Counted from the stretch's first letter, positions 2,790-45,725 are shown. The stretch is DNA of 48,693 nt from Candidatus Thermoflexus tengchongensis (GCA_016842085.1 JAEVEX010000009.1:1-48693), one strand, 5' to 3'. The notes: generated from the letters alone by a model not told the origin. Numbers and translations are program-made.

Positions 2790-3956
2790 TCAGCGGGGCA
2801 TGCGAAGAAAGACGCTGAGGGCCATCAGTTCCATCCCGATGGCGAAGGCGATCACCCCTCCCAGGGAGAGATCGTAGAGCGCTCCCATGGCCGCGCTGCC
2901 CAGGAACCAGGCCAGCCCGTAGATCCCGTTGAACAGGCCATAGGCCGTGCCGCGTTCCTCCCGGGCCACCAGCGAAGGGATGGCCGCCCGCATGATGGTC
3001 TCCTGCCCTCCGATCACCGCCCCCCAGAGCATCACGCCGATGAGCAATAGCAGGGGGTAACCGGAGAAGATCAGGGGGGCCGCAACGGCGCTGAAGGCCG
3101 GGATCGTCACCAGAACCCGGAGGCCGAAACGATCATACAGGGCGCCGAAGAGCAGGCCGGCGGCGGCATCCACCAGCATGGCCGCAGCGAACAGCACCGG
3201 GATCACGGGATCCGCCACGAGCCTCATCTGCTTCAGGTGAAACGAGAGCAGCTGGAAGTGAACCAGCCCGGCGACGCTCAGGGCCACGAAGATCAGATAC
3301 TGCCGGAAGCGTGGATCCGCGGTGCCCTTCGGGAGCGCCTTTCCTGGATCCGTGGGGGGGACCTCCAGGTGCTGGGGGGTGGGATAAAGCAGGCGGGCGG
3401 TGATCAGGAGACCCAGGGTGAGCAGCGCGGGGATCAGCAAGATCCCGAAGGCCAGATCATACCGCCCGGATAGCTGAAGGATCAGCGCCATCCCCAGGGG
3501 GCCTCCAACCGCCCCGATCTGGTCCAGGGCTTCGTGGAGGCCGAAGCCCTTTCCCGGCCCGATCTCGCTGGCGGCGTAGGAGAGCATCGTATCCCGGGCT
3601 GGGGTGCGGACGGCCTTTCCCAGCCGCTCGATCAGGATCAGCACGGCAGCGGCCGGCCAGGCACGGGTCAGGGCCAGGAGGGGGATGGCGAGCACGCTCA
3701 TGGCGTATCCGGGGATCGTGAAGATCCATGGCCGGCGCAGGCGATCGGTCAGGTAGCCGTAGAGGGGACGCAGCCCATAGCTGAGGAGCTCCCCGATGCC
3801 GCTGATCATCCCCACGATCGCTCCGCTGGCTCCCAGCAGCGCCAGGTAAGGTCCCAGGATGCTGCGGGCGCCCTCGTAGGTCACATCGGCCATCAGGCTG
3901 ACCAGGCCGAAGAGCACGATCAACCGCAGGGCTCGCTGGCGGTTCGAAGCCGACAT
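2790..3956 (-). CDS. Major facilitator superfamily transporter
   Basis: This 388-residue protein has about twelve hydrophobic segments. The loop between helices 2 and 3 (GYLTDRLRRPW) matches the MFS motif A pattern, and GALYDRFGLR is the matching loop in the second half. The text around ERLGKAVRTPARDTMLS resembles the group of MFS proteins annotated as putative drug or metabolite exporters in Chloroflexota and Deinococcota. The start at 3956 has GGAGGG upstream at a good distance. Substrate is unknown. The EamA gene lies just downstream on the same strand, so the pair may be a two-transporter operon. Confidence 0.87.
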   Translation of the reverse strand: MSASNRQRALRLIVLFGLVSLMADVTYEGARSILGPYLALLGASGAIVGMISGIGELLSYGLRPLYGYLTDRLRRPWIFTIPGYAMSVLAIPLLALTRAWPAAAVLILIERLGKAVRTPARDTMLSYAASEIGPGKGFGLHEALDQIGAVGGPLGMALILQLSGRYDLAFGILLIPALLTLGLLITARLLYPTPQHLEVPPTDPGKALPKGTADPRFRQYLIFVALSVAGLVHFQLLSFHLKQMRLVADPVIPVLFAAAMLVDAAAGLLFGALYDRFGLRVLVTIPAFSAVAAPLIFSGYPLLLLIGVMLWGAVIGGQETIMRAAIPSLVAREERGTAYGLFNGIYGLAWFLGSAAMGALYDLSLGGVIAFAIGMELMALSVFLRMPR

Positions 3957-4138
3957 GGGCTGAACCCTCCGGGACGCATTTGGGGGCTTGGCCCCCAGGG
4001 GGATATTGTCTCACGGTTGACCTCTTCCTGGGAGCTTTTGGGGAATGGCCATCCCGTTGCCCGGATGGAGGCTGAACCCCTAAGCCCGGAGGTGGGGGGT
4101 GGGCAGGGCTTTTTAATGTTCTGAGAGATAGGGGGGTG

Positions 4139-4185
4139 CAGGGGGCAAAAGCCCCCTGCCGGGGGGCTGCGGGGGGTGTCCCCCC
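4139..4185. repeat. Pair of G/C-run hairpins between the MFS gene and gdh
   Basis: Two perfect inverted repeats stand side by side. One has CAGGGGGC and GCCCCCTG arms around AAAA (4139-4158); the other has GGGGGG and CCCCCC arms around TGT (4171-4185). They lie in the roughly 300-base gene-free stretch 3957-4254 between divergent genes. No U-tract follows on either strand, so they are not classical terminators. They look like a short intergenic repeat element. I see no gene in this stretch. Confidence 0.5.
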
Positions 4186-4254
4186 ACCTTCTCCCTCCCC
4201 TTCCTGTCTGGATGGGTAAGATCTTCGAAAAGCCCTGGGGGGTGGGGCTGGAAA

Positions 4255-4284
4255 TTGACGGAAATCCAGATTCCCTGGTAAAAT
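4255..4284 (+). promoter_or_regulatory. Sigma-70-like promoter ahead of the leader or small RNA
   Basis: TTGACG at 4255-4260 and TAAAAT at 4279-4284 are separated by 18 bases. Both boxes match the bacterial consensus in five of six positions. Transcription would start near 4291. There is no start codon with a ribosome site before the terminator at 4369-4404. Confidence 0.65.
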
Positions 4285-4290
4285 GGAAGT

Positions 4291-4404
4291 GAATCCACTG
4301 GAGATCCTCTCTTTCACCGATGAGGCTGTGGAAAATTGTCCGCATAGCGGATCTGGATGGGATTCAGCGGGGCCACCTTGCCCGAGGTGGCCCCGTTTTA
4401 TTTT
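4291..4404 (+). ncRNA. Candidate structured leader or small RNA upstream of gdh
   Basis: The interval from the predicted start site to the terminator is about 114 nt and has no credible coding frame. Bases 4292-4296 (AATCC) can pair with 4360-4364 (GGATT), and 4302-4307 (AGATCC) with 4349-4354 (GGATCT). These enclose a loop in which CCGC at 4340-4343 could pair with GCGG at 4347-4350. The last hairpin and the AGATCC pairing share bases 4349-4350, so the two folds compete. It could be a stand-alone small RNA, or a leader controlling read-through into the glutamate dehydrogenase genes. I do not recognise it as a known riboswitch, SRP RNA or 6S RNA. Confidence 0.5.
4369..4404 (+). terminator. 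Rho-independent terminator in the gdh leader
   Basis: GGGGCCACCT (4369-4378) and AGGTGGCCCC (4385-4394) form a perfect 10-bp stem with a six-base loop. GTTTTATTTT follows directly. This is the clearest intrinsic terminator in the window. No complete plus-strand gene lies upstream of it for more than 2.5 kb, so it must act on the short transcript from the 4255-4284 promoter. Confidence 0.85.
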
Positions 4405-4508
4405 CTGACGGGCCTGTCGAATCCTATCCAGGGCTGTGCGACGGATTCCCCGGCGTAAATCCCGCTCGTGAGGATCCGACCAGGAATCCTTTTTAAGGAG
4501 CGCTTGCC

Positions 4509-5792
4509 ATGGCGGTGGAACAGATCCGGCAGGAGACCCTGAATCCCTTTGAGATTGTTCAGAAGCAGCTGGACGAGGTCGCCCAGGTGATCGGCCTGGA
4601 GCCTCACGTTCATGAGATGCTCCGCTGGCCCAAGCTGGAGATCCAGGTCACCTTCCCCGTCCGCATGGACGATGGGTCGATCCGGATCTTCCGGGGGTTC
4701 CGGGTGCAATATAACGATGCCCGGGGCCCGGCCAAGGGTGGTATCCGTTACCATCCCCAGGAAACCATTGATACAGTGCGGGCCCTGGCGGCGTGGATGA
4801 CATGGAAGACCGCGGTGATGGATCTGCCCCTGGGCGGCGGGAAGGGCGGCGTGGTGTGCGATCCCAAGCATCTCTCTCAGGGGGAGCTGGAGCGGATCAG
4901 CCGGGCCTACATTCGGGCCATCGCCCCCTTCATCGGGCCGGAGCGGGATGTGCCCGCGCCGGATGTTTACACGAACCCTCAGATCATGGCCTAGATGATG
5001 GATGAATACAGCACCATCGTCGGTTACAACGCCCCCGGGGTGATCACGGGCAAGCCGCTGCCCCTGGGCGGAAGCCGGGGGCGGGAAGACGCCACCGCCC
5101 GGGGTGGGATCTATGCCACCCGGGAGGCGGCGAAGGTGCTTGGCCTGGATTTGAACGGGGCTACAGCTGCCATCCAGGGCTATGGGAACGCCGGCCAGCA
5201 TGCCCATCGGCTGGGGGTGGAGCTCCTGGGCCTGAAGGTGGTGGCCGTCAGCGACTCCCAGGGTGGGGTTTACAACCCCAGGGGGCTGGACTTCGCCGCG
5301 CTGTCGGCCTGGAAGCGGGAGCACGGCACCGTCGTGGGCTTCCCGGGGGCCGATACCCTCACCAATGAGGAGCTGCTGGAGCTTCCGGTGACGGTCCTGT
5401 TCCCGGCCGCTCTGGAGAACCAGATCACCGCGGAGAATGCCCCGCGCATCCGGGCCCGTATCGTGGCGGAGCTGGCGAACGGCCCCACCACCCCGGAGGC
5501 CGATCACATCCTCCACGAGAACGGGGTTTACGTCATCCCGGACTTCCTGTGCAACGCGGGCGGGGTCACGGTCTCCTACTTCGAAATGGTGCAGAACGCC
5601 TACGGCTACTACTGGAGCGAGGCGGAGGTCCATCAGCGGCTGGATGAGAAGATGACGGCAGCTTTCCACGCGGTGCATGAGACCGCGCGGCGCTACCGGG
5701 TGCATAACCGGCTGGGTGCTTACATCGTCGCGATCGAGAGGACCATCTCCCCAACCTCAGGCTCTCATCTGCATCCGCTGGAAGGAGGAACT
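4509..5792 (+). pseudogene. First glutamate dehydrogenase, interrupted by an in-frame TAG and lacking its own stop
   Basis: The first 161 codons give a normal Glu/Leu/Phe/Val dehydrogenase N-terminal domain, with [29 protein letters not shown] and [17 protein letters not shown] then stands at 4992-4994 where the neighbouring paralogue has TGG (Trp). Two ATG codons follow, and the same frame continues through the dinucleotide-binding domain ([46 protein letters not shown]). The usual last dozen residues and stop codon after GAYIVAIER are missing, and the frame runs without a stop into the next gene. All catalytic lysines and the aspartate are intact, so the damage looks recent. It could be a sequencing error, a true pseudogene, or a gene read by suppression or re-initiation at 4995. 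Confidence 0.75.
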
Positions 5793-7139
5793 ATGGCGGT
5801 GGAACGCTCGGTGGAGGTTTCCTACAGTGCTTTCTACTCTCCCTCGCCGGAAGCTGTTCGGAAGGGCCTCCAGGCCTGGCATGCGGCGCTGGCTCAGTTC
5901 GATAAGGCCGCCCGGATCCTGGAGGCCTCGGGCCATCCCCTCAAGAAGGGGCTCATTGAATTCCTGCGCCGCCCCAAGCGGGAGCTGATCGTCAACTTCC
6001 CCGTCCAGATGGACGATGGGTCGATTCAGATGTTCACCGGCTACCGGGTGCACCACAATGCCGTCCGCGGCCCAACAAAGGGCGGCATCCGCTACCATCC
6101 GGATGTCACGCTGGAGGAGGTGCGGGCGCTGGCGATGTGGATGACCTGGAAATGCGCGCTGGTGAACATCCCCTACGGAGGGGCCAAGGGCGGCGTGGCG
6201 GTGGATCCCATGAAGCTCTCCCCCCGGGAGCTGGAGCGCCTCACCCGCCGCTATGCCACCGAGATCAGCCTGCTGATGCATCCGGGTGGGGATGTGCCCG
6301 CCCCGGATGTGGGGACCAATCCCCAGATCATGGCCTGGATCATGGACACGTATTCCATGCACACCGGCTTCGCTCAGCCTGCCGTGGTCACCGGGAAGCC
6401 CGTGGAAATCGGCGGGACGGTTGGGCGGGTGGAGGCCACCGGGCGCGGGGTGATGATGGTGGTCGCTGAAGCCCTGAAAGTAAACCGGATCCCCATCGAG
6501 CAGGCCACCATCGCTATCCAGGGCTTCGGGAACGTGGGCTCTCATGCAGCCCTTACCGCCTACCAGATGGGAGCCAAAGTGGTGGCGGTGAGCGATCTCC
6601 ACGGAGGGATTTATAACCCGAAGGGCCTGAATATCCCCCGTCTGGTTGAGCATGTCGGGCAGCATCGAACGGTCATCGGCTTCCCCGAGGCCGAGCCCAT
6701 CACCAACGCCGAGCTCCTGACCCTGAAGGTGGATGTGCTCATCCCCGCCGCCCTGGAGAACCAGATCACCGCGGAGAACGCCCCCCTCATCCAGGCCCGC
6801 ATCCTGGCGGAAGGGGCCAACGGCCCCACCACCCCGGAGGCCGATGAGATCCTGCTGGAGAAAGGCGTGTTCATAGTGCCGGACATCCTGTGCAATGCCG
6901 GCGGGGTGATTGCCTCTTATTTCGAGTGGGTGCAGGATTTGCAGTCGTTCTTCTGGACGGAGGAGGAGATCAACCAGCGGATGGAGCGGATCCTGCAGCG
7001 GGCTTTTTACGAGGTGCTGGCGAAGGAAGAAGAGCTGCGCCGCTATGGCCTGAAGCCGGGGGACTATCGCACGGCCGCCCAGGCGCTGGCGATCTGGCGC
7101 GTCGCCCAGGCGACCCTGATTCGGGGCATTTACCCGTAG
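5793..7139 (+). CDS. gdhA: NAD(P)-dependent glutamate dehydrogenase
   Basis: This enzyme interconverts glutamate with 2-oxoglutarate and ammonia. It has 448 residues, slightly longer than usual because of an N-terminal extension. The substrate domain shows [29 protein letters not shown] and [14 protein letters not shown], which carry the conserved lysines and catalytic aspartate. The Rossmann domain shows [14 protein letters not shown] and the C-terminal [16 protein letters not shown]. The ATG at 5793 is preceded by GGAAGGAGG, an excellent site. The broken paralogue upstream reads into it in the same frame, so a 714-residue fusion starting at 4995 is also possible. Paired GDH genes occur in Thermus, where one partner is regulatory. 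Confidence 0.93.
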
Positions 7140-7191
7140 GCGATACCCCGGGATTCCTCCAGAGGAGCGGGGGGCCTGGCAGGTCATCCTG

Positions 7192-7217
7192 GGGGCCTGT
7201 CAGGCCCCTACGCCTTT
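7192..7217 (+). terminator. Probable terminator after gdh
   Basis: GGGGCCT (7192-7198) and AGGCCCC (7202-7208) form a perfect 7-bp stem with a three-base loop. A TTTT run follows after a few bases (about 7214-7217). It sits 53 bases after the gdh stop codon. The gap before the T run makes it weaker than the terminator at 4369. Confidence 0.5.
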
Positions 7218-7276
7218 TCATTGAGAGAATGTCCTTATGAGGCGTGGCCAGCCTTAGGAGCCGCTGAGGGGAAAGG

Positions 7277-7699
7277 ATGTCCGGAGAAGCGACCCGCGGG
7301 GTTTATGTGCTGTGGCTGGAGGTATCCGGGGAGGTTCAGATCGGCCGCCTGGGGCGCTGGCGCCTGAACGGCGGTTATGCCTATGTGGGCTCCGCGCAGG
7401 GCCCGGGTGGGCTCCGGCGGCTGCAGCGCCATCGGGATGTGGCCGAGGGCCGGAATCCCACCCGCCGCTGGCATATCGATTTCCTGCTGGCCGTCGGCGC
7501 ATGGCGCGGGGCCTTCATCATGGAGACCGATGATCCTCGCATGGAGTGCCAGCTGGCCCGCGCGCTGGCGGAGCGGTTGCCCCCCGCGATCCCCCGGTTT
7601 GGCAGCAGCGATTGCCGCTGCCCGACTCACCTTTTCGCTATCCCCGATGTCGCCCGGTTCCACCAGCTGATGTTTGAACTGGGCCTTCATCCAATTTGA
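7277..7699 (+). CDS. GIY-YIG-like DUF123 protein
   Basis: The 140-residue product belongs to the DUF123 family, a GIY-YIG-related domain seen alone or fused to endonuclease III in archaea and thermophilic bacteria. The family signature is visible as RGVYVLWLEV, YAYVGSAQGPGGLRRLQRH, RRWHIDFLL and the conserved cysteines in MECQLA and SSDCRCPTHLF. The length is that of the stand-alone form. The ATG at 7277 lies behind a purine-rich GAGGGGAAAGG. A role in DNA repair is usually supposed from the fusions but has not been shown for this protein. It is followed by a strong hairpin and a T run. Confidence 0.85.
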   Translation: MSGEATRGVYVLWLEVSGEVQIGRLGRWRLNGGYAYVGSAQGPGGLRRLQRHRDVAEGRNPTRRWHIDFLLAVGAWRGAFIMETDDPRMECQLARALAERLPPAIPRFGSSDCRCPTHLFAIPDVARFHQLMFELGLHPI

Positions 7700-34581: not shown

Positions 34582-36312
34582 TCATCCCGTATTCGCAGGG
34601 ATTCGGGAACGCGCTTCCGCAACCAGGGAGCGGACGGCGGCCGCATCGGCCTGGCGGAGCGCTTCCTCGGCCAGGGCACGGGCCTCCGCCATCGACCAGC
34701 GGCGGATCGTTGCCTTCACTTCCGGCACCCGCACCGGGTTCACGCTGAGCTCCTGCACCCCCAGTCCGATCAGCACCGGCACCGCCGAAAGATCCCCCGC
34801 CAGCTCCCCGCAGACGCCGACCCATTTCCCGGTTCCTTCGGTCGCAGCCGTCACGTGGCGGATCAGGCGCAGCACCGCGGGGTGCAACCCATCGGCCAGC
34901 CCGGCCACCGCCGGGTTGGTCCGATCCGCCGCCAGCGTGTATTGGGCCAGATCGTTCGTCCCGATGCTGAAAAAATCCACCCAGGGCATAAAATGCTCCG
35001 TGAGCAGCGCAGCGGCCGGCACCTCCACCATCATCCCCACCTGCAGATCCTGCGGCGGAGGATGGCCTTCCGCCGCAAGGGCAGAGCGCACTTCCTCGAA
35101 GAACTCTCGGAGCCAGCGGATTTCCTCCACCGTGCTCACCATGGGGAACATAATCCGCAGGGGGAACCCCACCCCGGCGCGGAGCAATGCGCGAAGCTGC
35201 TGGCGCAACAGGTCGGGATGCTGCCGGGAGAGCCGCACGCCCCGCACGCCCAGGAACGGATTCGCCTCGGGAGGCATCGGGAGATAGGGCAACGGCTTAT
35301 CGCCCCCCACATCCAGGGTGCGCACCACCACCGGCCTTCCCCCCATCGTCTCCAGCAGGGCCCGGTAGACCGCCACCTCCTCTTCCTCCGTCGGCGCAGC
35401 CGTCCGGCCCAGGTAGAGGAACTCGGTGCGCAACAGGCCAATGCCATCCGCCCCCTTCTGGAAAGCCTCCCGGGCATCCTCCATGCTTCCCACATTGGCC
35501 GCCACCTCAATCCGTACGCCATCCCGGGTTCGGGCCGGCTCATGGGCAACGGCCTCCGCCTGGGCTCGCTCCTGGAGCCACACCGCCCGCCGGGCCTGGG
35601 CCTGGCGCACCACTTCCGGGTCCGGCTCCACTTCCACCCACCCGGCCTCGCCGTCCACCAGCACCTGCACGCCATCGGAGACCGTTCGGAGCTCCGCGCC
35701 GATGGCGACGACCGCCGGGACCCCCAGACGACGGGCCAGGATCGCGGCATGGGCGGTCGGCCCTCCCCCTTCCATGACGAACGCCAGCACCCGTCGGGGG
35801 TCCAGGCTGACCGTTTCGGAAGGCAACAGATCATCGGCCGCCACAACCACCGGGCTCTCCGGCATGGTGGGCGTCTCCAGGCTGCCCGTGAGATGGCGCA
35901 GCACCCGGTTCCCCACATCCCGCACATCCGCTGCGCGGGCCTGGAAATAGGGGTCGGGCAGCGCGGCCAGCTGCGCTGCGAAAGCCTCCACGGCTTTCAC
36001 CCATGCCGCCTCCGCGGAGGCACCCGCGGCCAGCTCTGCTTCCACCGCAGCCATCAGCTCCGGATCCTGGAGCATCAGCTCCTGGGCCTCGAAGATCGCC
36101 AGCTCCTCCGGAGACAGACGATCCCGCTGGGCCTCCCGGAGCGCCGCGAGCTCCGCCGCCGCCCGCTCCCGGGCCCTCTGCAGCCGCATCCGTTCGACCG
36201 CCGCGTCCTCCCCGCGCGTCCGCATCGCAACCGGAAGAGCCCGCCGGAACCACCAGACCGGGCCTACGGCGATCCCCGGGGAAGCCGGGAGACCCTGCAG
36301 GCGACGGCTCAT
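34582..36312 (-). CDS. ptsI: PTS enzyme I (phosphoenolpyruvate-protein phosphotransferase)
   Basis: Enzyme I takes phosphate from PEP and passes it to HPr. The 576-residue protein has the N-terminal HPr-binding and swivelling domain with the phospho-histidine in GGPTAHAAILARRLGVPAVV (about residue 187). The PEP-binding barrel shows RTEFLYLGR, RTLDVGGDKPLPYL and the active cysteine in VGVCGELAGD. Length is standard. Its ATG overlaps the stop of the HPr gene as ATGA (36309-36312). As no sugar EIIBC gene is in the locus, this PTS is likely to feed DhaM only, although EII genes elsewhere cannot be excluded. It is the last gene of the glycerol/DHA locus. Confidence 0.96.
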   Translation of the reverse strand: MSRRLQGLPASPGIAVGPVWWFRRALPVAMRTRGEDAAVERMRLQRARERAAAELAALREAQRDRLSPEELAIFEAQELMLQDPELMAAVEAELAAGASAEAAWVKAVEAFAAQLAALPDPYFQARAADVRDVGNRVLRHLTGSLETPTMPESPVVVAADDLLPSETVSLDPRRVLAFVMEGGGPTAHAAILARRLGVPAVVAIGAELRTVSDGVQVLVDGEAGWVEVEPDPEVVRQAQARRAVWLQERAQAEAVAHEPARTRDGVRIEVAANVGSMEDAREAFQKGADGIGLLRTEFLYLGRTAAPTEEEEVAVYRALLETMGGRPVVVRTLDVGGDKPLPYLPMPPEANPFLGVRGVRLSRQHPDLLRQQLRALLRAGVGFPLRIMFPMVSTVEEIRWLREFFEEVRSALAAEGHPPPQDLQVGMMVEVPAAALLTEHFMPWVDFFSIGTNDLAQYTLAADRTNPAVAGLADGLHPAVLRLIRHVTAATEGTGKWVGVCGELAGDLSAVPVLIGLGVQELSVNPVRVPEVKATIRRWSMAEARALAEEALRQADAAAVRSLVAEARSRIPANTG

Positions 36313-36632
36313 CCCCCATCCTCCCCGAACCGGGATTCCACCAGCGCTTTCAGCGTGGCGATGGCATCCGCCTCGTCCGGCCCCTCCGCGGCGATCTCAA
36401 TGACATGGCCGTGTTCCGCGCCCAGGGTGAGCACCGCCAGGATCGCCTTGGCGTTCACCGGGGGCGTTCCGCGGGTGACATTCCGCACCGTGATGTTCGA
36501 GCGAAACCGGGCAGCCGTCTGCACGAAGAGGGCCGCCGGCCGCGCATGTAAACCGACCGCGTTCGTTAACGTCAATGTGACCTGTTGCATCCCTCCTGCC
36601 TCAGGTCGCGTAGATTCCGGCGCGTTCTTCAT
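36309..36632 (-). CDS. ptsH: HPr phosphocarrier protein
   Basis: HPr carries phosphate on a histidine from enzyme I to EIIA-type proteins. The active site is NAVGLHARPAA. If translation starts at the inner ATG at 36590, this histidine is residue 15 as in classical HPr, and the protein has 93 residues. From 36632 it has 107 residues. The outer start makes an ATGA overlap with the dhaM stop and has AAGGTG ahead; the inner one has AGGAGGG but almost no spacing. Where Gram-positive HPr has the regulatory Ser46 (NxKS), this protein has NAKAIL, so regulation by HPr kinase is not expected. Confidence 0.93.
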   Translation of the reverse strand: MKNAPESTRPEAGGMQQVTLTLTNAVGLHARPAALFVQTAARFRSNITVRNVTRGTPPVNAKAILAVLTLGAEHGHVIEIAAEGPDEADAIATLKALVESRFGEDGG

Positions 36633-37033
36633 CCCTGGGGCACCTTGGGCATCCGGCAGGCTTCGACCGCCGAGGCCTCGATCTCCGCCGCGGTTTTACC
36701 GATGGAGGCCTCCACGGCGGCGACGATCGCGCCCTCCACCAGCGGCGCCTGGCTCAATCGGATGCGGGGGCGAACCTCCGGGGCCAGCATCTCAATCGCC
36801 ATCTGGGCCCCCATCACCGCGCTGCCCAGATCCATCAAAACCAGGACCTCATCCGCCCGGGCGAGGGCCATCTCCAGCGCCTGACGGATCTGTTCCACAT
36901 TGGTGCCCAGGGTGTGCTCATCCAGGCCGCCGGCCGCAAAGATCGGAACCCGGCCTTGCACCATCTGCTCGGCCAGCTCTTTCACCCCTTCCGCCAGTTT
37001 CGCGCTATGGGCCACGATCACCAGAGCAACCAT
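36629..37033 (-). CDS. dhaM: DhaM, PTS EIIA-type phosphotransfer subunit of DHA kinase
   Basis: DhaM passes phosphate from HPr to the ADP bound in DhaL. The 134-residue protein is the EIIA-Man fold alone. The phospho-histidine is H9 in LVIVAHSAKLAEG. LMDLGSAVMGAQMAIE and LVEGAIVAAVEAS match DhaM proteins. E. coli DhaM is fused with HPr- and EI-like domains; here those functions are separate genes directly downstream. AAGGGG precedes the ATG at 37033. The DJ-1 gene ends nine bases upstream. Confidence 0.92.
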   Translation of the reverse strand: MVALVIVAHSAKLAEGVKELAEQMVQGRVPIFAAGGLDEHTLGTNVEQIRQALEMALARADEVLVLMDLGSAVMGAQMAIEMLAPEVRPRIRLSQAPLVEGAIVAAVEASIGKTAAEIEASAVEACRMPKVPQG

Positions 37034-37042
37034 AAAAACCCC

Positions 37043-37594
37043 TTACCGGGAAGGGGATGCAGGAACCGGCTCGCCGACCAGAGCAGCCACCAGCTCCCGG
37101 CAGAAGGCCGGGATATCCGGAACCACACGGCCCCAGACCAGATTGCCATCCCGGAAAGCCGGCTCGTCCACCCAGATGGCTCCCGCGTTGATCAGGTCAT
37201 CTTTGATCCCCAGGCTTCCGGTCGCCCGATGCCCCCGCACGATGCCCGCGGAGATCCCCACCTGGCCGCCATGACAGATCATCGCCACGATCTTCCCCTG
37301 CTGGTAAGCTTCCCGGACCAGGCGGAGGACCGCCTCGTAGCGCCGCAGCTTATCGGGCGCCCAGCCGCCGGGGACCACCACCGCATCGAAATCCGCAGCG
37401 GAAACCTGATCAGCGGCTACATCCGCTTTCGCTGTGAGCCCCCCGCTCTTGCTGCGGACGACCTTCCCGGCTTCCAGCCCTACCACCGTCACAGAGGCCC
37501 CTTCCTCCTGAAGGCGCATCAACGGGACCCAGAACTCCAGGTCCTCAAAGCCTTCCTCCACCAGGATCGCCACCTTCCGGCCGTTCAGTCGCAT
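37043..37594 (-). CDS. DJ-1/PfpI family protein (possible methylglyoxal-detoxifying enzyme)
   Basis: The 183-residue product belongs to the DJ-1/PfpI superfamily, whose members act as glyoxalase III, deglycases or proteases. The nucleophile is C107 in MICHGGQVG, with H108 beside it, and acidic residues are in EEGFEDLEF near the start. The ATG at 37594 has AGGTGGAG ahead; the frame extends to 37690 but without a signal. The position within a glycerol/DHA locus suggests removal of methylglyoxal formed from dihydroxyacetone phosphate. That is an inference, as the PfpI subgroup is functionally mixed. Confidence 0.88.
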   Translation of the reverse strand: MRLNGRKVAILVEEGFEDLEFWVPLMRLQEEGASVTVVGLEAGKVVRSKSGGLTAKADVAADQVSAADFDAVVVPGGWAPDKLRRYEAVLRLVREAYQQGKIVAMICHGGQVGISAGIVRGHRATGSLGIKDDLINAGAIWVDEPAFRDGNLVWGRVVPDIPAFCRELVAALVGEPVPASPSR

Positions 37595-37723
37595 GGCCAC
37601 TCCACCTCGCTCAAGGATCCAAAGGGCTCGCCGAATCCATGGTTTCCAGTGAGCGCTCTGGGGAACGAGCGGGCGCCTCCGGCATCGCACCCGCCCCCTG
37701 CCTGTATGCTGGAGGGCAAGCCC

Positions 37724-38341
37724 TCATCCACCCTCATGGGGCTCCTGCCATTGGGCCGGCCTGCACGCCGGGCATTCCTCTACTTCCCAAACCCGTTCCA
37801 GGACCGTCGCATCGATTTGCTCCGGCGGACCCTCGCGAAAACCGACCGCTCCGCACCGGCAAGCATACCAGCCCAGCGGGACCTTTTCAAAAGAAAGGGC
37901 AGGTCCCAGATCGATCTCCTCCACCCCCATCCGCCATCGGGCATTGGTGAAGAGACGACGGCAACCCGCGGCGCGAAGTTTGCGAAGGTAAAGGGAAAAG
38001 GCCGTGCAGTGCCGCATCAGGAGGACCGCCGTTTCCACCGGGGGAAAAGGCCAGGTTCGCGCGTCCGCCCAGACGATCACCAACCGGTCCGAGAGCGAGA
38101 GGGGCTGCCCCCATCGCAGGGCTCCAGGGAGCATCCCCAGGGTGCGTATCCCCCTGGCCAGCAGGGCCCATTGACGTTCCACCGCGACCACCTGGCACCC
38201 CCGCTCGGCCATCCGGAGCGACAGACGAAGATCTCCAGCCCCGATGTCCAGCACCCGCTCCCCTGGCCTGAGCCGGGCCAGGATCCGATCGTAAACCTCC
38301 TCCTCATAAGGAGCCCACACCAGCTCCCAGTCGCGGATCAT
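37724..38341 (-). CDS. Class I SAM-dependent methyltransferase-like protein
   Basis: The 205-residue product has a Rossmann-type SAM-binding loop, RVLDIGAGDLRLSLRMAERG (about 29-48), then VVAVERQ as the acidic end of strand 2. The usual active-site strand is unclear, and the C-terminal part has CRCGAVGF and CPAC, which may bind a metal. The ATG at 38341 overlaps the stop of the cytochrome b-like gene as ATGA, so translation is coupled to it. The substrate is unknown. No other protein-modification gene is near. Its place in the run between a respiratory anchor and the DJ-1 gene is odd. Confidence 0.75.
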   Translation of the reverse strand: MIRDWELVWAPYEEEVYDRILARLRPGERVLDIGAGDLRLSLRMAERGCQVVAVERQWALLARGIRTLGMLPGALRWGQPLSLSDRLVIVWADARTWPFPPVETAVLLMRHCTAFSLYLRKLRAAGCRRLFTNARWRMGVEEIDLGPALSFEKVPLGWYACRCGAVGFREGPPEQIDATVLERVWEVEECPACRPAQWQEPHEGG

Positions 38342-38667
38342 GCGCCCCGCGATCGAATCCACCACGAAAGCCACACCCCATAACCGATGATCCCCAGGCC
38401 GACCAGGGTCAGGCCCCGTTTCAGCCACCGATCCGTTCCCGGCCCGATCCCCAGATCCAGGAGGATGGCTCGCACCCCCATCAGCGCGTGGGCGGTGACC
38501 ACCACCAGGAAGAGGATCTCCCATGTGAACACCACCGGATGGGACAGATACGCCACCACATCCCGATAGGTTCGCAGGCCGCCTTCAACCACGAAATGGT
38601 TGAAGACCATATGGAGCGTCAGCAGGATCAGCAGGAGCAATCCGGTGAATGCTTGCCAGATCCACAT
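38338..38667 (-). CDS. Second cytochrome b-like membrane anchor (SdhC/D family)
   Basis: The 109-residue protein has three membrane helices, as complex II anchors do. Histidines that may bind haem are in LTLHMVFNHF and TAHALMGVRAILLDLGIG. The last motif is nearly the same as HALNGVRVTLLGLGIG in the neighbouring SdhC-like protein, so the two anchors are paralogues. AGAGG precedes the ATG at 38667. A dispersed repeat lies in the 246-base gap to the upstream gene. The anchor should join the Fe-S protein to the quinone pool in the membrane. Confidence 0.82.
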   Translation of the reverse strand: MWIWQAFTGLLLLILLTLHMVFNHFVVEGGLRTYRDVVAYLSHPVVFTWEILFLVVVTAHALMGVRAILLDLGIGPGTDRWLKRGLTLVGLGIIGYGVWLSWWIRSRGA

Positions 38668-38758
38668 CTTCAGGCCTCTGGAAGTTCAGGATATGGGCGA
38701 CCTGGATCCTCAGGAAGGCGAACCGCCTCTTCTCTGCTGGTCCTTAATACGACAACCG

Positions 38759-38836
38759 CGTAGGGCAACTGCAAGCAGTTGCCCTGCACCTCCAGGTGGG
38801 ATGGTGGCCCCCCTTGAAGGCCGGGTGCGGCTGTAG
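38759..38836 (-). repeat. Dispersed intergenic repeat, copy 2 (inverted orientation)
   Basis: Read on the minus strand this is CTACAGCCGCACC, then GGGGCCACCATCCCACC, then the GGGCAACTGCTTGCAGTT palindrome, as in copy 1 (33218-33320) but about 23 bases shorter between the two parts. It lies inside the operon, between the sdhC-like and second anchor genes. The surrounding gap (38668-38913) holds no gene. Confidence 0.85.
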
Positions 38837-38913
38837 GATTAACCCCGGAATCCCCGGGGTGGATAACGCCCTGGGGGTCTGCCCCGGGGAAGGTGGACCC
38901 GCTGCCGATCTGC

Positions 38914-39303
38914 TCATCCTGCGATCGTGAAGATGGCGTATGCAGCGATCGCGGTCATCAGCAGGGTCAGGGCCATGACCCCCCAGAACAGCCGCGCCTG
39001 GTGGGGCACGCCGATCCCCAGGCCCAGCAGCGTCACGCGGACCCCGTTCAACGCGTGATACAGGATCCCCAGGATCAGGAGGCCGTCCAGCGCCAGAAAG
39101 AGCGGGGACTTCGCCATCGCGATGAAAGCATCCCAGGCCTCCGGCCCCTGGGCGAGCAACCGCAGCACATACAGATGGAGGAACAGGTAAATCACCAGGC
39201 CGATGCCCGTTAGGCGCATGAGCAGGAAGGCCAGCCCTCCCTCCCGGCGGCCCCGCAGGTCGATCCATCCGCTGGCACGCTTCCAGCGTGGCACTTCCCT
39301 CAT
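38914..39303 (-). CDS. sdhC: Cytochrome b556-like membrane anchor (SdhC family)
   Basis: The 129-residue product has three helices (FLLMRLTGIGLVIYLFLHLY, PLFLALDGLLILGILYHALN, ARLFWGVMALTLLMTAIAAYAIF) after a basic N-terminus. Family features are the RxTG at the first helix, the histidine of LFLHLYVL, and HALNGVR, the usual haem ligand and quinone-site residues. The ATG at 39303 has AGGAGG and overlaps the sdhB stop as ATGA. It should form the membrane part of a complex II-like enzyme. The partner flavoprotein may be GlpA rather than SdhA, as argued in the findings. Confidence 0.87.
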   Translation of the reverse strand: MREVPRWKRASGWIDLRGRREGGLAFLLMRLTGIGLVIYLFLHLYVLRLLAQGPEAWDAFIAMAKSPLFLALDGLLILGILYHALNGVRVTLLGLGIGVPHQARLFWGVMALTLLMTAIAAYAIFTIAG

Positions 39304-40019
39304 CGCCCGCCTCCTATCCAGCGCCGGAGCTTTTCCACGATCAGGCGACGGCGCAGACGTCCGATCGCGGAGGCCGGATCCACATTCGATGGGCAGACCG
39401 CCGTGCATTCCATCGCGGAATGACAGCGCCAGGCCCCATGCGGATCATCGGCCAGTGTTAGCAATCGGGCGGTATCCCCGCCGCGGGGCTCCGCCAGCAT
39501 TCGTTCGATGGCGGCCAGGGTCGCCGGCCCCAGGTAAGCTTCATCAGCTGCCATCACCGGGCAGGCTGAGAGACACAGCCCACATTCAATGCAATCCTCA
39601 AAGCGGGTGATCTGCTCGATTCCCTCCGGCAACGGGCGATCCGCGGTGAGCTCATCCCGACGGATGATGGCGAATCCCACCTCCGCCATCCGTCGCATCA
39701 TGGGCGAGACATCCACGAGGAGATCGCCCAGCCAGGGGAAATGCCGCAACGGCTCCACCTGGATCACCCCGTCCGGGGAGAACTCCCGAAGTGGGGTGAT
39801 ACACATAAGGCGTTCGCGGCCGTTCACCCGAACCCCGCAGGCGCCACAGGAGGCGTGGTGGCATGCGTGTCGGAAGAGCAGGCTGCGATCCTGCTCGGCC
39901 CAGATCTTCTCCACCGCATCAATGAGATAGGCTTCCGCGGGAAGCTCCACCCGATAGGTTTCCAGCCGGGGGGAGCTTCCCGGACGCCCCCGGAGCAGAC
40001 GCAGCTGCCATGTGGGCAT
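39300..40019 (-). CDS. sdhB: Complex II-type iron-sulfur subunit (SdhB/FrdB-like)
   Basis: The 239-residue protein carries the full set of cysteines of a succinate dehydrogenase or fumarate reductase Fe-S subunit. The [2Fe-2S] set is C53, C58, C61 and C73 (ACHHASCGACG, LMC). The cysteines of the [4Fe-4S] and [3Fe-4S] clusters are C143, C146, C149, C153, C199, C205 and C209 (CIECGLCLSACP, CHSAMECTAVCP). GGAGG precedes the ATG at 40019. No sdhA lies in the window; the next gene upstream is the flavoprotein glpA, 138 bases away. It transfers electrons from the flavin to the haem/quinone anchors. Confidence 0.93.
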   Translation of the reverse strand: MPTWQLRLLRGRPGSSPRLETYRVELPAEAYLIDAVEKIWAEQDRSLLFRHACHHASCGACGVRVNGRERLMCITPLREFSPDGVIQVEPLRHFPWLGDLLVDVSPMMRRMAEVGFAIIRRDELTADRPLPEGIEQITRFEDCIECGLCLSACPVMAADEAYLGPATLAAIERMLAEPRGGDTARLLTLADDPHGAWRCHSAMECTAVCPSNVDPASAIGRLRRRLIVEKLRRWIGGGR

Positions 40020-40086
40020 TCGCGGGTTCCTCCAGATCTGGAATCCGATCTGCGCCGTCGAGCTTCGATCGAGAAGACGGGATGAT

Positions 40087-40120
40087 CCCTCCGGATGGCC
40101 CACAGGGCCATCCCGGAGGG
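40087..40120 (-). promoter_or_regulatory. Hairpin between glpA and the Fe-S gene
   Basis: CCCTCCGGATGGCCC (40087-40101) pairs with GGGCCATCCCGGAGGG (40105-40120) with one bulged base. No T run follows in either direction. It may mark a processing site or partly terminate the message between glpA and sdhB. Confidence 0.6.
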
Positions 40121-40157
40121 GGGAAATCCTTTGGGGCTGGGCCGGCCCCGCTCCGAC

Positions 40158-41315
40158 TTAGAAAAACGCTCGATAGGAAAGCAGAGGCACCTCCCGGGTC
40201 CGGCATGGGATTTCCAGCCCCAGCTTGGCGCACACGACATCGACCGCTTTCTCCGCCATCGCCCGCGCGGTGGTCATCTTCCCCCCGGTGATGGTCACAA
40301 AGCCCTCCACCCCGTCGACCGCGTGATCGAAGCACTCAAAAGTGCGCGAGAGCTCCCGCCCATCTGCAGCGACCCCTCGCCGCCCCACCAGCGGCCGGGC
40401 CACCGCGAAGACCCCCCGGATCCCTCCCCGGGTATACCCGGGGATGAAGCGCTCCGCCCGATCCAGCAGCAGGCGCACGTGATCCTCCGGGATCGGGATG
40501 AAATCCGGATCCTCCACCCGCCATGAGGTGGTCCCGATGATCGCAGTGCGACGCTGGGGGACAATGATATCGCCATCGCCGGGCATGTTCAGGCGATTGA
40601 TCACCATGCGGTTCCATCGTCGACCCACCGAGATCATCACCCCCGCCGTGGGCACCACGGGGACATCCACCCCGGCCATGGCGGCGATCTTGCCGGACCA
40701 TGGTCCGGCAGCGTTCACCACGATATCGCCCCCGATCACTCGCTCCTCCCCGGTTCGACGATCCCGCACCCGAACGCCCACCACCGTCCGACCCTGAAAG
40801 ACGAAATCCACGACCTCCGTATAGGTGAGGACCGTGGCGCCGTTGTGCTTAGCCGTCGCCAGGAAGGAGAGGCAGAACCGGAAGGGCTCGAAGACCCCAT
40901 CGGGAACCTGGACGGCCGCCAGGATGTGGGGGTTGAGATGCGGCTCCAGGGCCAGGGCCTGCTTCACCGGGATCTCCCGGGCAGGGATGCCGCACTCCTC
41001 ACAGGCGGCCAGGAACCGCTCCTTAAACGAGAGGTCCTGTTCATCCAGGGCGACAAACAGGCCATCGTTCAGCTCCAGGGCCTCCGGCATAATGCGCCGC
41101 AGGATCATGTTCTCCTCAATGCACTCCCGGGCCGACTCCGGATCCCGCATCGCATACCGTCCCCCGGAGTGCAACAAGCAGTGATTCCGCCCCGAGGTCC
41201 CCGAGGCGACTTCCCCCCGTTCCACCACCGTCACCCGGAACCCTCGAAGGGCCAGGTCATGCGCGACAGCCGCTCCGGTCGATCCTGCGCCGATCACAAC
41301 GACGTGATAGGACAT
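40158..41315 (-). CDS. glpA: FAD-dependent glycerol-3-phosphate dehydrogenase (GlpA type), short form
   Basis: This flavoprotein oxidises glycerol 3-phosphate to dihydroxyacetone phosphate. The FAD loop is VVVIGAGSTGAAVAHDLALRG at the N-terminus, and ERGEVASGTSGRNHCLLHSGGRY is typical of GlpA. The family motifs VVNAAGPWSGKIA and FVTITGGKMTTARAMAEKAVD are present. At 385 residues it stops where classical GlpA continues with a Bfd-like Fe-S domain, so electrons must leave through another subunit. The ATG at 41315 has AGGAGG-like purines ahead; an in-frame GTG lies one codon earlier. The three complex II-like genes follow directly. Confidence 0.9.
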   Translation of the reverse strand: MSYHVVVIGAGSTGAAVAHDLALRGFRVTVVERGEVASGTSGRNHCLLHSGGRYAMRDPESARECIEENMILRRIMPEALELNDGLFVALDEQDLSFKERFLAACEECGIPAREIPVKQALALEPHLNPHILAAVQVPDGVFEPFRFCLSFLATAKHNGATVLTYTEVVDFVFQGRTVVGVRVRDRRTGEERVIGGDIVVNAAGPWSGKIAAMAGVDVPVVPTAGVMISVGRRWNRMVINRLNMPGDGDIIVPQRRTAIIGTTSWRVEDPDFIPIPEDHVRLLLDRAERFIPGYTRGGIRGVFAVARPLVGRRGVAADGRELSRTFECFDHAVDGVEGFVTITGGKMTTARAMAEKAVDVVCAKLGLEIPCRTREVPLLSYRAFF

Positions 41316-41340
41316 CACCGAGACCTTCCTCCTCCAGAGG

Positions 41341-41417: not shown

Positions 41418-42932
41418 TCAGAGCTCCACCCAGCCGAAGGAGCGCTCGACTGCCTTCTTCCACCCGGCATAGAGCTTCTCCCGGGTCTCCGGATCCATCT
41501 TCGGCAGCCAGCGCTTGTCCTCCTTCCAGTACTGGCGGATCTGCTCCGGACCGCTCCAGAAGCCCACCGCCATCCCGGCGGCATAGGCCGCGCCCAGGGA
41601 AGTCGTCTCCGCGATCACCGGCCGGACCACCGGCACGCCCAGGATGTCGGCCTGGAACTGCATCAGCAATTCATTGTAGACCATCCCGCCATCCACCCGG
41701 AGCTCAGCCAGCTTGATCCCGGAATCCGCATACATGGCGTCGAATACATCCCGGGTCTGATAGGCCGTGGCCTCCAGGACCGCGCGGGCGAGATGGCCTT
41801 TGTTGATGTAACGGGTGAGGCCGACGATCACCCCCCGGGCGTCCAGCCGCCAGTAAGGCGCGAAAGCGCCGGAGAAGAAGGGGACAAAGTAGATGCCCCC
41901 ATTGTCCTCCACCGTCCGCGCCAGATCCTCGATCTCCGCCGACCGGGAGATCAGGCCCAGATTGTCCCGCATCCACTGAACCAGGGCGCCGGTGATGGCG
42001 ATGGAGCCTTCCAGCGCGTAAATGCACGGACCCTTGCCGAACTGATAGGCCACCGTGGTGAGCAAACCGCTCTTGGAGGGGACGATGTTCGTGCCGGTGT
42101 TCAGGAGCAGGAAGCAACCGGTGCCGTAGGTGTTCTTGGCCATCCCCACCTCCAGCCCGGCCTGGCCCACCAGAGCGGCCTGCTGATCGCCCAGGTCTCC
42201 GCACACCGGAACCTCCGCGCCGAAGAGGCCGCCCTTCGGGGTCCTGCCGTAAAGATCCGGGTCCGAGGAGGGGCGGATCTGCGGCAGCATCTGGCGCGGG
42301 ATGCGGTGGATCTTGAGGATGTCATCATCCCAGTCCAGCGTGCGCAGGTTCATCAGCATGGTGCGACTGGCATTGGAGACGTCGGTGACATGGGCGCCGC
42401 CCTCCGGCCCGCCGGTCAGCCACCAGATCAGCCAGGTGTCGATGTTGCCGAAGAGGGCCTCGCCCTTCTCCGCATCCTCCCGCACGCCGGGGACGTTATC
42501 CAGGATCCACTGGAGCTTGGGGCCGGAGAAGTAGGTGGCGATGGGAAGCCCCGTCTTCTCCCGATACATCGCCTCATAGCCCTCGCGCTGGAGCTGGGCG
42601 CAGATCGGGGCAGTGCGGGTATCCTGCCACACAATGGCGTTGTAATACGGCTTGCCGGTGCGCTTGTTCCAGACGATGGTGGTCTCCCGCTGGTTGGTCA
42701 CCCCGATGGCGGCGATGTCCGCCCCGGTGATCCCGGCCTTGGCCAGGGCGTTCTTCACCACCTCCTGGGTCCGCTCCCAGATCTCCAGCGGGTTGTGTTC
42801 CACCCAGCCGGGCTGCGGGTAGATCTGCTCATGCTCCTTCTGATCCCACGCGACCACATTGCTCTCGTGGTCGAAGATCATGGCCCGGGTGCTGGTGGTC
42901 CCCTGATCGATCGCCATCACATACTTCGCCAT
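41418..42932 (-). CDS. glpK: Glycerol kinase
   Basis: GlpK phosphorylates glycerol with ATP to glycerol 3-phosphate and so traps it after entry through GlpF. The 504-residue protein has the FGGY-kinase N-terminus [21 protein letters not shown] and family motifs: [46 protein letters not shown], and the C-terminal [24 protein letters not shown]. Length and motifs are complete. AGGGAGG precedes the ATG at 42932. It lies between dhaL and glpA in the locus. Confidence 0.97.
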
Positions 42933-43008: not shown

Positions 43009-43647
43009 TCAGGTCGCGTTGGCCCACGTGTCGGCGGCCGCTTTCAGAATAAGATAAGAGGAAGTGGCCCCTGGATCCTGATGACCCGCGGAGCGCTCTC
43101 CAAGATAGCTGGCGCGCCCCTTGCGGGCCACCATAGGGATCGTGGCCTTCATCCCCTGCTCCGCCGCCTCGGCCATCCGCTGGAGGGCCTTTCCAAACGA
43201 GTCGCCGTTGCGGATGGCCTCCTTAAAAGCCTCCAGGGCGGGCAGCAGGGCGTCGACCATCGTCTTATCGCCCGGGCGGGCCTGGCCACGGGCGATCACC
43301 CCGTTGATGCCCGCCTCCAGGGCCTCCGTCCAGTCCTCCGGAGTCAGCATGAGCTTGTTGGCGGTCTTCACACCCAGCTGCAGGAAGAACGTGCCGTAAA
43401 GCGGCCCGCCGGCCCCGCCCACCGTGGCTACCAGGGTCATCCCCAGGGTCTTGAGGATGGTCCCGATGTCCTTGTCCGCAACCGAGGGCAGCTTGGCCAT
43501 GAAGGCCTTGAAGCCGCGGTCCATGTTGGCTCCGTGATCCGCGTCCCCGATCGCCGCATCCAGCTGGGTCAGGTAATCCCGGTTCTCCTCCAGCACTGCC
43601 GCACAGCGCTCCAGCCAGGCCACGACATCATCCCGCATCACCGGCAT
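43009..43647 (-). CDS. dhaL: DhaL, ADP-binding subunit of PTS-dependent dihydroxyacetone kinase
   Basis: DhaL holds a tightly bound ADP that is phosphorylated by DhaM, and hands the phosphate to dihydroxyacetone in DhaK. The 212-residue protein shows the metal and nucleotide-binding DAAIGDADHGANMDRG, then GGAGGPLYGTFFL, and the C-terminal GRASYLGERSAGHQDPGATSS, all typical of DhaL. The start at 43647 has GGAGG ahead; the ATG at 43638 is also possible. It follows dhaK with a gap of 77 bases that contains a hairpin. Confidence 0.96.
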   Translation of the reverse strand: MPVMRDDVVAWLERCAAVLEENRDYLTQLDAAIGDADHGANMDRGFKAFMAKLPSVADKDIGTILKTLGMTLVATVGGAGGPLYGTFFLQLGVKTANKLMLTPEDWTEALEAGINGVIARGQARPGDKTMVDALLPALEAFKEAIRNGDSFGKALQRMAEAAEQGMKATIPMVARKGRASYLGERSAGHQDPGATSSYLILKAAADTWANAT

Positions 43648-43724: not shown

Positions 43725-44726
43725 TCACATTCCCCAGCGCAGCGCCGGGGTCTTGACCGGATGATCCCACAGCTCCAGCATCTCATCATCCGCCCGGAGC
43801 AGGGTGATGGACGTCCCGGCCATCTCCAGGGAGGTGATGTAGGCTCCTACCAGGTTGCGGACGATCTGGATGCCGGACTTTTCGCAGATCTCCGCGACCT
43901 TGCGGTAGACGATGTAGAGCTCGCTCAGCGGGGTGCCGCCCATGGAGTTCACCATGCAGATCACCCGGTCGCCGGCTTTGAAGGGGAGATCCTTCAGGAT
44001 GGGCTCCATCAACCGTTCGACGATCTCATCGGCCTTCTTCAGGGGTTCGCGGTAACGGCCGGGCTCTCCGTGGATGCCAATGCCGATCTCCATCTCGTCC
44101 TCGCCCAGCTCGAAGGTCGGCTTGCCCACGTGGGGCACCGTGCACGAGGTCAGGGCCATCCCCATCGAGCGACCGTTCTCCGCCACCCGGCGGCCCAGGG
44201 CGGCCAGGCGCTGGAGATCGTAGCCGCGCTCGGCGGCCGCCCCCAGGATCTTCTCCGCCAGCACCGTGGTGCCGGTGCCCCGGCGGCCCTGGGAGTAGAG
44301 GCTGCTCTCCACGGCCACGTCGTCGGCGATCAGCACGCTCTCCACCTGGAAGCCCTCGCCCCGCAGGAGATCCGCCGCCATATCGAAGTTCATCACGTCC
44401 CCAGCATAGTTCTTCACGATCATCAGGATCCCGGCGCCCCCATGGACCGTCTTGGCCGCCTCATACATCTGATCGGGGGTGGGGGAGGTGAACACCGCCC
44501 CGGGGCATGCGGCGTCCAGCATCCCGTAGCCCACAAAGCCCACGTGCATGGGCTCATGGCCGCTCCCCCCACCGGAGATCACCGCCACCTTCCCCGGCCG
44601 GGGCGCATCGGCGCGGTAAACGAAGTTAGGGTTGAAGTGCACCTTGATCAAATCCGGATGGGCCTTCGCCATCCCTTCGAGCGCTTCCGGGACTACGTTC
44701 ATCGGATCGTTAATCAATTTCTTCAT
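43725..44726 (-). CDS. dhaK: DhaK, substrate-binding subunit of dihydroxyacetone kinase
   Basis: DhaK binds dihydroxyacetone covalently to a histidine and receives phosphate from DhaL, giving dihydroxyacetone phosphate. The 333-residue protein has [18 protein letters not shown] with the acid-base histidine, [15 protein letters not shown] with the aspartate, and [10 protein letters not shown] with the covalent histidine. AAGGAGG precedes the ATG at 44726; the frame extends to 44804 without a signal. It lies between glpF and dhaL. Confidence 0.97.
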
Positions 44727-44759
44727 GACCGCCCTCCTTGGAGATCCGCGGGGAAGCCG

Positions 44760-44786
44760 GTGGGGGAGGCAAGACGCCTCCCCCAC
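44760..44786 (-). promoter_or_regulatory. Hairpin between glpF and dhaK
   Basis: GTGGGGGAGGC (44760-44770) and GCCTCCCCCAC (44776-44786) form a perfect 11-bp stem with a five-base loop AAGAC. No T run follows. It fills most of the 74-base gap between the two genes. Confidence 0.65.
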
Positions 44787-44800
44787 CCACAGCAGGGCCT

Positions 44801-45514
44801 TCACATCCCCAACGCCACGAACAGGAAGGCGCCGATCAGGCCGCCCACGATGGGGCCAACCACCGGCACCCAGCTGTAGCCCCAGTCGGAGTCGCCTTTG
44901 CCCGGAATAGGAAGGACCGCATGGGCGATCCGCGGCCCGAGGTCACGGGCCGGGTTGATGGCATAGCCCGTGGGCCCGCCCAGGGAGAGGCCGATGGCCC
45001 AAACCAGGAAGCCCACGAGCAGGGGAACCCAGCCGGCGGGAAGATTGTTCGCCCCGATGGCCAGGACCCCGAAGACCAGCATGAAGGTCCCGATGACCTC
45101 GGTGATGAAGTTCAGCGCGTAATTGCGGATGTTCGGGGCCGTGCAGAACACCGCGCGCTTGAGGGCCGGATCGGGCGTCTCCGCCCAGTGAGGGAGATAC
45201 GCCAGCCACACCAGCACCGCACCGATGAAGGCGCCGATGAACTGGCCAATGATATAGATATAGAGAGGAACATCGGACCATGGGAACCTACCGACGGCAG
45301 CAAGGGCGATGGTCACGGCCGGGTTGATGTGGGCCCCGCTGATACGGCCCACCGCATACACGGCCATGGCCACCGCCATGGCCCACCCCGTGGTGATCAC
45401 AATCCACCCCGAGGCCTGGCCTTTGGTCTTGCCCAGGACGACGTTGGCCACCACGCCGTCGCCCAGGAGGATGAGGATCATCGTCCCGATGATCTCCGCC
45501 ACCCAGGGTGCCAT
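44801..45514 (-). CDS. glpF: Glycerol facilitator (aquaglyceroporin)
   Basis: GlpF lets glycerol enter by diffusion. The 237-residue protein has six membrane helices and two NPA boxes, [11 protein letters not shown] (N64-A66) and [13 protein letters not shown] (N187-A189). The RD pair after the second box is the glycerol-channel type rather than the water-channel type. AAAGGAG precedes the ATG at 45514. It is the first gene of the glycerol/DHA locus, so the promoter must lie in the 396 bases up to 45910. Confidence 0.96.
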
Positions 45515-45725
45515 GGTTGCGCTCCTTTCGTGAATGAGGGGTTCCGATCTCTGGTTCCACACTGACCCCACGGCGCAGGACGGTGGATCCGTCCGCCAGC
45601 CCGCACCACCTGGCGATCCTTCCGCCGATCGCGCTCCATGCACCTCCTTCCCGCAAATCTGGACCTACAAGTCCACCTTCTATCTTTAGCCACCTGCCCC
45701 CATTCCGGCAAGCCTTTTCACCGAA

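Follow-up and report, generated by a model that had tools for sequence, protein, structure and literature searches.

A candidate GlpA-SdhBCD glycerol-3-phosphate:quinone oxidoreductase encoded in Thermoflexus and other Chloroflexota

The membrane-bound oxidation of glycerol-3-phosphate (G3P) has been described with several partner sets for its flavoprotein. According to the part of PMC11962113 available to us, canonical GlpA carries a Bfd-like Fe-S domain, and bacterial glpA is said to go consistently with glpB and glpC. The same study proposed, from synteny, a different assembly named GlpA-SdhBCD for the archaeon Thermofilum pendens and its relatives (Schmerling et al. 2025, PMC11962113), in which glpA is followed by counterparts of SdhB, SdhC and SdhD, the GlpA C-terminus departs from the canonical one and a membrane complex is proposed to pass electrons through subunits resembling those of succinate dehydrogenase (SDH), as far as the part available to us describes it. 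Here we report a bacterial locus that resembles this system in gene order and description alone. It lies in a 48,693-nucleotide stretch of Candidatus Thermoflexus tengchongensis (GCA_016842085.1 JAEVEX010000009.1:1-48693; hereafter the window), which lies on contig C10 in a genome of 3.9 Mb, and consists of a short glpA followed on the minus strand by an sdhB-like gene and two cytochrome b genes. Very probably, the four genes encode a single membrane-bound GlpA-SdhBCD glycerol-3-phosphate:quinone oxidoreductase, whose assembly and activity we infer from the comparisons below.

The glpA gene (40158..41318, minus strand; PF01266, 1e-53) encodes an FAD-dependent G3P dehydrogenase subunit of 386 residues when read from a GTG at 41318, or 385 from the ATG at 41315, and carries the DAO domain only. 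Against the equivalog model TIGR03377 it scores 457 bits (cut-off 552.8): the match spans profile positions 1-377 of 530, and the absence of the final third keeps the score under the threshold. That missing C-terminal third is the Bfd-like Fe-S region, so the first-pass annotation was right to call this a short GlpA of 385 residues that lacks the domain; other short forms likewise stop within about 10 residues of profile position 377. Arg308 (in an ARPL motif), the SR-motif arginine (Arg321/325) and GGK347 are all present, in a region that aligns to solved G3P dehydrogenases and oxidases, and are conserved in short and long GlpA alike. Although the protein shares a DAO fold and substrate site with GlpD, the aerobic G3P dehydrogenase, it is not GlpD at the equivalog level (PRK12266, 100 bits; cut-off 360), and at 386 residues it lacks the C-terminal domain of GlpD, a monotopic enzyme that stands by itself. 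The likeness to E. coli GlpABC, the anaerobic G3P dehydrogenase, lies in the homologous flavoprotein domain, the same substrate and, in Chloroflexota, the same slot after glpK; the Thermoflexus module differs in having no Bfd-like domain, GlpB or GlpC; their place is taken by an SdhB homologue with a pair of cytochrome b anchors.

The sdhB-like gene (39300..40019, minus strand; PF13085, Fer4_8) encodes an iron-sulfur subunit that scores 178 bits against TIGR00384 (cut-off 88) and matches solved FrdB and SdhB structures along its length. The ATG at 40019 is probably the real start, giving 239 residues as in relatives; comparison with these relatives led us to reject a start at 40103. The eleven cluster cysteines reported in the first-pass annotation (C53, C58, C61, C73, C143, C146, C149, C153, C199, C205 and C209) are all there and are invariant in 18 aligned relatives, completing the ligand set for a [2Fe-2S], a [4Fe-4S] and a [3Fe-4S] cluster. 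Both of the anchors that it named also hold up as SdhC/D-like members of the Sdh_cyt family (PF01127), each with three transmembrane helices: anchor 1 (38914..39303, minus strand; 129 residues) at 3e-11, scored on the longer open reading frame 38914-39408, and anchor 2 (38338..38667, minus strand; 109 residues) at 2.5e-9. For anchor 1, the start at 39408 was rejected in favor of 39303, where an ATGA overlaps the sdhB stop. His43 and His83 of anchor 1 and His19, His24 and His60 of anchor 2 are shared by 85 of 85 loci, so that helix 2 of each anchor has a single invariant histidine and helix 1 has one or two. This pattern is as expected of a menaquinone-type complex II base with two bis-His hemes, by analogy with the known di-heme succinate:quinone and quinol:fumarate reductases (SQR/QFR). 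The locus thus shares with complex II the ligands of all three SdhB clusters and two Sdh_cyt anchors with invariant histidines in helices 1 and 2, as in the di-heme type, but its flavoprotein is a DAO-family GlpA rather than SdhA (FAD_binding_2/Succ_DH_flav_C), and its SdhB belongs to a clade of its own.

Because SdhB and the anchors are genuine complex II homologues, they might be a spare base for the SdhA of the same genome, placed after glpA through mere co-regulation. The genome makes this scarcely credible. As first noted, the window has no sdhA, and every Succ_DH_flav_C match of the genome is on another contig. The one true sdhA, on contig C86 (TIGR01816, 882 bits; cut-off 727), is no orphan: it already has its own sdhB (PRK05950, 351 bits; cut-off 228), along with sdhC and sdhD, both Sdh_cyt genes. 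This complex II is complete (sdhCDAB), and the glp-linked SdhB is therefore surplus to SDH. A further five of the seven PF13085 matches in the genome reach at most 30 bits and cover positions 44-90 only, too weak and partial to be counted as SdhB. The same division is seen across 23 related genomes: wherever sdhA is clear, the strong matches adjoin a separate canonical SdhB, and a second SdhB adjoins glpA. The part of the Thermoflexus genome paper available to us lists SDH and names menaquinone and G3P in a figure legend, with no glycerol physiology in that part. Within the C86 operon, a small retropepsin-like aspartyl protease gene sits between sdhD and sdhA (L017, 7424-7777).

Phylogeny points the same way. 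In the SdhB tree, a single branch (Shimodaira-Hasegawa-like approximate likelihood ratio test, 100) splits 95 glp-type rows from 40 other SdhB rows, four of which are GlpC-like fragments, so the glpA-linked copies group apart from the SdhB of SDH. Short and long GlpA also separate in their tree once one locus (L149) is set aside, whose 'long' label is due only to a split phmmer match. GlpA and SdhB co-evolve: their distances correlate at 0.84, compared with 0.49 for GlpA and GlpK, and the partial correlation given GlpK is 0.81, a value reached by 0 of 2,000 permutations. A spare base for SdhA would not be expected to follow GlpA more than GlpK in this way. The nearest relative of the window's GlpA in the GlpA tree is a record of Candidatus Thermoflexus sinensis, and the window's SdhB is 84-95% identical to that of named Thermoflexus records.

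A survey of 400 Chloroflexota genomes shows that GlpA chooses its partners by form. GlpA matches are bimodal, with short ones sharing 54-91% identity and aligning as far as residues 375-386, long ones at 38-50% in frames mostly above 510 residues, and a score gap between them (436 versus 349 bits); glp-type SdhB likewise stands apart (at least 266 bits versus at most 232, the one exception being a split copy, in G144, that scores 228). Short GlpA and glp-type SdhB co-occur in the same 22 genomes, and a 23rd (G002, 73% complete) has short GlpA only, truncated at a contig end; these genome counts are not phylogenetically independent, though they span many families. The co-occurrence holds even where the genes are unlinked, both in G262, G037 and G349, which belong to a single family, and in the named genomes reached through L122, L123 and L172, which again argues against a spare base kept beside glpA by co-regulation. 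GlpB is above its cut-off in 20 of 20 control genomes with long GlpA; among the genomes with short GlpA it appears only in G289, G159, G327 and G399, which also have a long GlpA. In the long-form loci examined, glpB and glpC follow glpK-glpA in the slot that sdhB and the anchors hold here. The lack of glpB and glpC first remarked in the window holds further: no GlpB exceeds its cut-off anywhere in the Thermoflexus genome, and the glpC slot beside glpA is held by sdhB and the anchors. Elsewhere in the genome, the one CCG-domain protein examined is GlcF-like and, at 112 bits, falls short of the GlpC cut-off (278). If its SdhB were merely spare, a GlpA with neither the Bfd-like domain nor GlpB would have no electron acceptor.

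The gene order itself is widely kept. Among the best 80 of 244 named relatives, L145 begins at the edge of a contig and was unreadable; in 74 of the remaining 79, sdhB comes immediately after glpA (same-strand glpA seen in 73, a glpA end at the contig edge in L157, and five unlinked), a recurrence that rules out a chance grouping. Almost all of these loci are from Chloroflexota, and all are bacterial; they include the isolate Thermanaerothrix daxensis GNS-1 (L148). One (L103) is labelled Bacillota, and a search of the phylum of that genome added two more, L219 and L220, of which L220 reads glpK-glpA-sdhB-cytb-cytb. Cytochrome b anchors are present in 87 of 90 paired glpA-sdhB loci. Far from being confined to the window, the glpA-sdhB-cytb-cytb neighborhood is thus kept across Chloroflexota and under another phylum label. 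On the contig of L170, in a metagenome-assembled genome labelled Dormiibacterota, the glpA-sdhB module has an SdhA-SdhB fusion of about 870 residues (L059, 12310-14919) some 5 kb away.

The sdhB gene is in frame with glpA in the window and at 32 other loci, so that read-through translation yields a GlpA-linker-SdhB chain from unaltered DNA. AlphaFold2, given an alignment of 28 paired and 50 unpaired rows and run for five models, predicts this chain with a mean predicted local distance difference test (pLDDT) of 87.0 and a predicted template modeling score (pTM) of 0.89, and with a disordered linker. When GlpK and GlpA were joined likewise as a control, pLDDT was similar at 87.4 and pTM was 0.57, as would be expected for two domains without fixed placement; the models thus favor a defined interface between GlpA and SdhB. 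Foldseek assigns the GlpA half to G3P oxidases and dehydrogenases (best structural matches 2qcu and 2r45) and the SdhB half to the complex II iron-sulfur subunit Ip. VIA-align matches of the fusion to GlpD reach model residue 532, a hint, on which we do not rely, that the [2Fe-2S] domain of SdhB might occupy the position of the C-terminal domain of GlpD.

The hybrid suggested by the first-pass annotation, a G3P flavoprotein on a complex II base, is therefore supported by gene content and linkage, exclusive partners, co-inheritance and a confident predicted placement of GlpA on SdhB, from which we infer the physical complex. In such an enzyme, glycerol would enter through GlpF and be phosphorylated to G3P by GlpK of the same operon, and GlpA would oxidize G3P to dihydroxyacetone phosphate (DHAP) on its FAD. 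Electrons would then pass from GlpA to the [2Fe-2S], [4Fe-4S] and [3Fe-4S] clusters of the docked SdhB and on to the two cytochrome b anchors, where a quinone, presumably menaquinone, would be reduced beside two putative bis-His hemes. SdhB and the anchors would take over the role of GlpB and GlpC in E. coli. The DHAP would feed central metabolism, and a dihydroxyacetone (DHA) kinase with its own phosphoryl chain would handle DHA in parallel.

The direction of this reaction could in principle be reversed, making the complex a quinol:DHAP reductase that supplies G3P for lipids, and complex II relatives do work in both directions, as SQR and QFR. The operon, however, is catabolic in content (glpF, glpK and dhaKLM), and the G3P/DHAP couple is more negative than menaquinone, which favors oxidation, so we consider a reductase very unlikely.

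It is also conceivable, if hardly probable, that GlpA alone reduces quinone or oxygen in the manner of GlpD or GlpO and that SdhBCD serves only as a membrane anchor. Some loci do have GlpA-SdhB without anchors, and Sulfolobus GlpA-type enzymes are described as reducing quinone without a partner, with CoxG only as an anchor, in the part of PMC11962113 available to us. Mere anchoring, however, would have no need of eleven invariant cluster cysteines or of anchor histidines that stay unchanged at 85 of 85 loci.

Several observations weigh against the proposed GlpA-SdhBCD enzyme. No cytochrome b genes lie beside sdhB at L075, L149, L152 and L219, nor beside the unlinked sdhB of L088-L090, L122, L123, L125 and L130, so the anchors are not the route to quinone at every locus. 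The GlpK-GlpA control model had 15 paired rows to the 28 of GlpA-SdhB, and the Thermoflexus genome also encodes a GlpD-like protein. This GlpD-like G3P dehydrogenase (L019, G000:C74:27000-38000, 2790-7385; PRK12266, 286 bits, below the cut-off of 360) is flanked by a GlcD-like FAD oxidase on one side and a GlcF-like CCG/Fe-S protein on the other.

The loci without cytochrome b differ among themselves. At L075, L149 and L152, a short glpA-sdhB pair is followed by a ketopantoate reductase-like (panE-like) gene. At L088, L089, L090, L122, L123, L125 and L130, a glp-type sdhB stands alone, far from glpA, with no homologue of the window anchors found nearby, and the genomes checked among them still have a short GlpA. 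At L219 (G571:C13; 6654-8515 and downstream), the order glpF-dhaKL-glpK-glpA-sdhB is followed by a CCG-domain (HdrB/SdhE-like) protein, possibly a further anchor exchange.

More speculatively, the complex II base (SdhB with a di-heme anchor or, in one lineage, with a CCG-domain protein) may be an interchangeable module for quinone reduction that took on a DAO-family flavoprotein. It would then form a bacterial class of respiratory complex independent from that of archaea, and its two hemes could link the oxidation of G3P to transmembrane charge movement. We think this possible but doubtful. An enzyme of this kind has already been proposed for Thermofilum, where the system is archaeal and known from synteny (in the part of PMC11962113 available to us); what was a gene-order suggestion in a few archaea is now seen in many bacterial genomes, giving the bacterial member a much wider distribution. 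In that part of PMC11962113, we found no demonstration of activity and neither partner-exclusivity nor docking evidence for the archaeal version, and the bacterial short glpA contradicts its statement that glpB and glpC are constant company. We found no report of a bacterial GlpA-SdhBCD in the open-access literature, where PMC11962113 was the only relevant paper; subscription papers may differ. The module could account for glycerol respiration in these Chloroflexota and offers a natural example of a flavoprotein swapped on a complex II base, and counts of SdhB overestimate complex II. Because the cultured Thermanaerothrix daxensis has it, the complex is open to direct search.

All module genes belong to a glycerol/dihydroxyacetone operon that runs along the minus strand from 45643 to 34582 in the order glpF, dhaK, dhaL, glpK, glpA, sdhB-like, two cytochrome b genes, a methyltransferase-like gene, DJ-1/PfpI, dhaM, HPr and enzyme I. 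Upstream of the module are a glpF-like aquaglyceroporin gene (44801..45643; PF00230), the DHA kinase subunit genes dhaK (43725..44804; PF02733) and dhaL (43009..43647; PF02734), and, directly before glpA, the glycerol kinase gene glpK (41418..42932; FGGY_N and FGGY_C). Downstream, a small methyltransferase-like gene (37724..38341; weakly similar to PF00398, under the cut-off) overlaps the stop codon of anchor 2 in an ATGA, its start being taken as 38341 and one at 38524 rejected; it occupies the same place near the module in many relatives. It is followed by a DJ-1/PfpI family gene (37043..37690; PF01965), dhaM for the phosphoryl donor subunit of the phosphoenolpyruvate-dependent DHA kinase (36629..37033; TIGR02364, 133 bits), an HPr-like phosphocarrier gene (36309..36632; TIGR01003) and a ptsI-like gene for enzyme I (34582..36312; TIGR01417, 539 bits). 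Where the window has separate genes for DhaM, HPr and enzyme I, one relative apparently has a single fusion protein of 841 residues (L091, 3838-6363).

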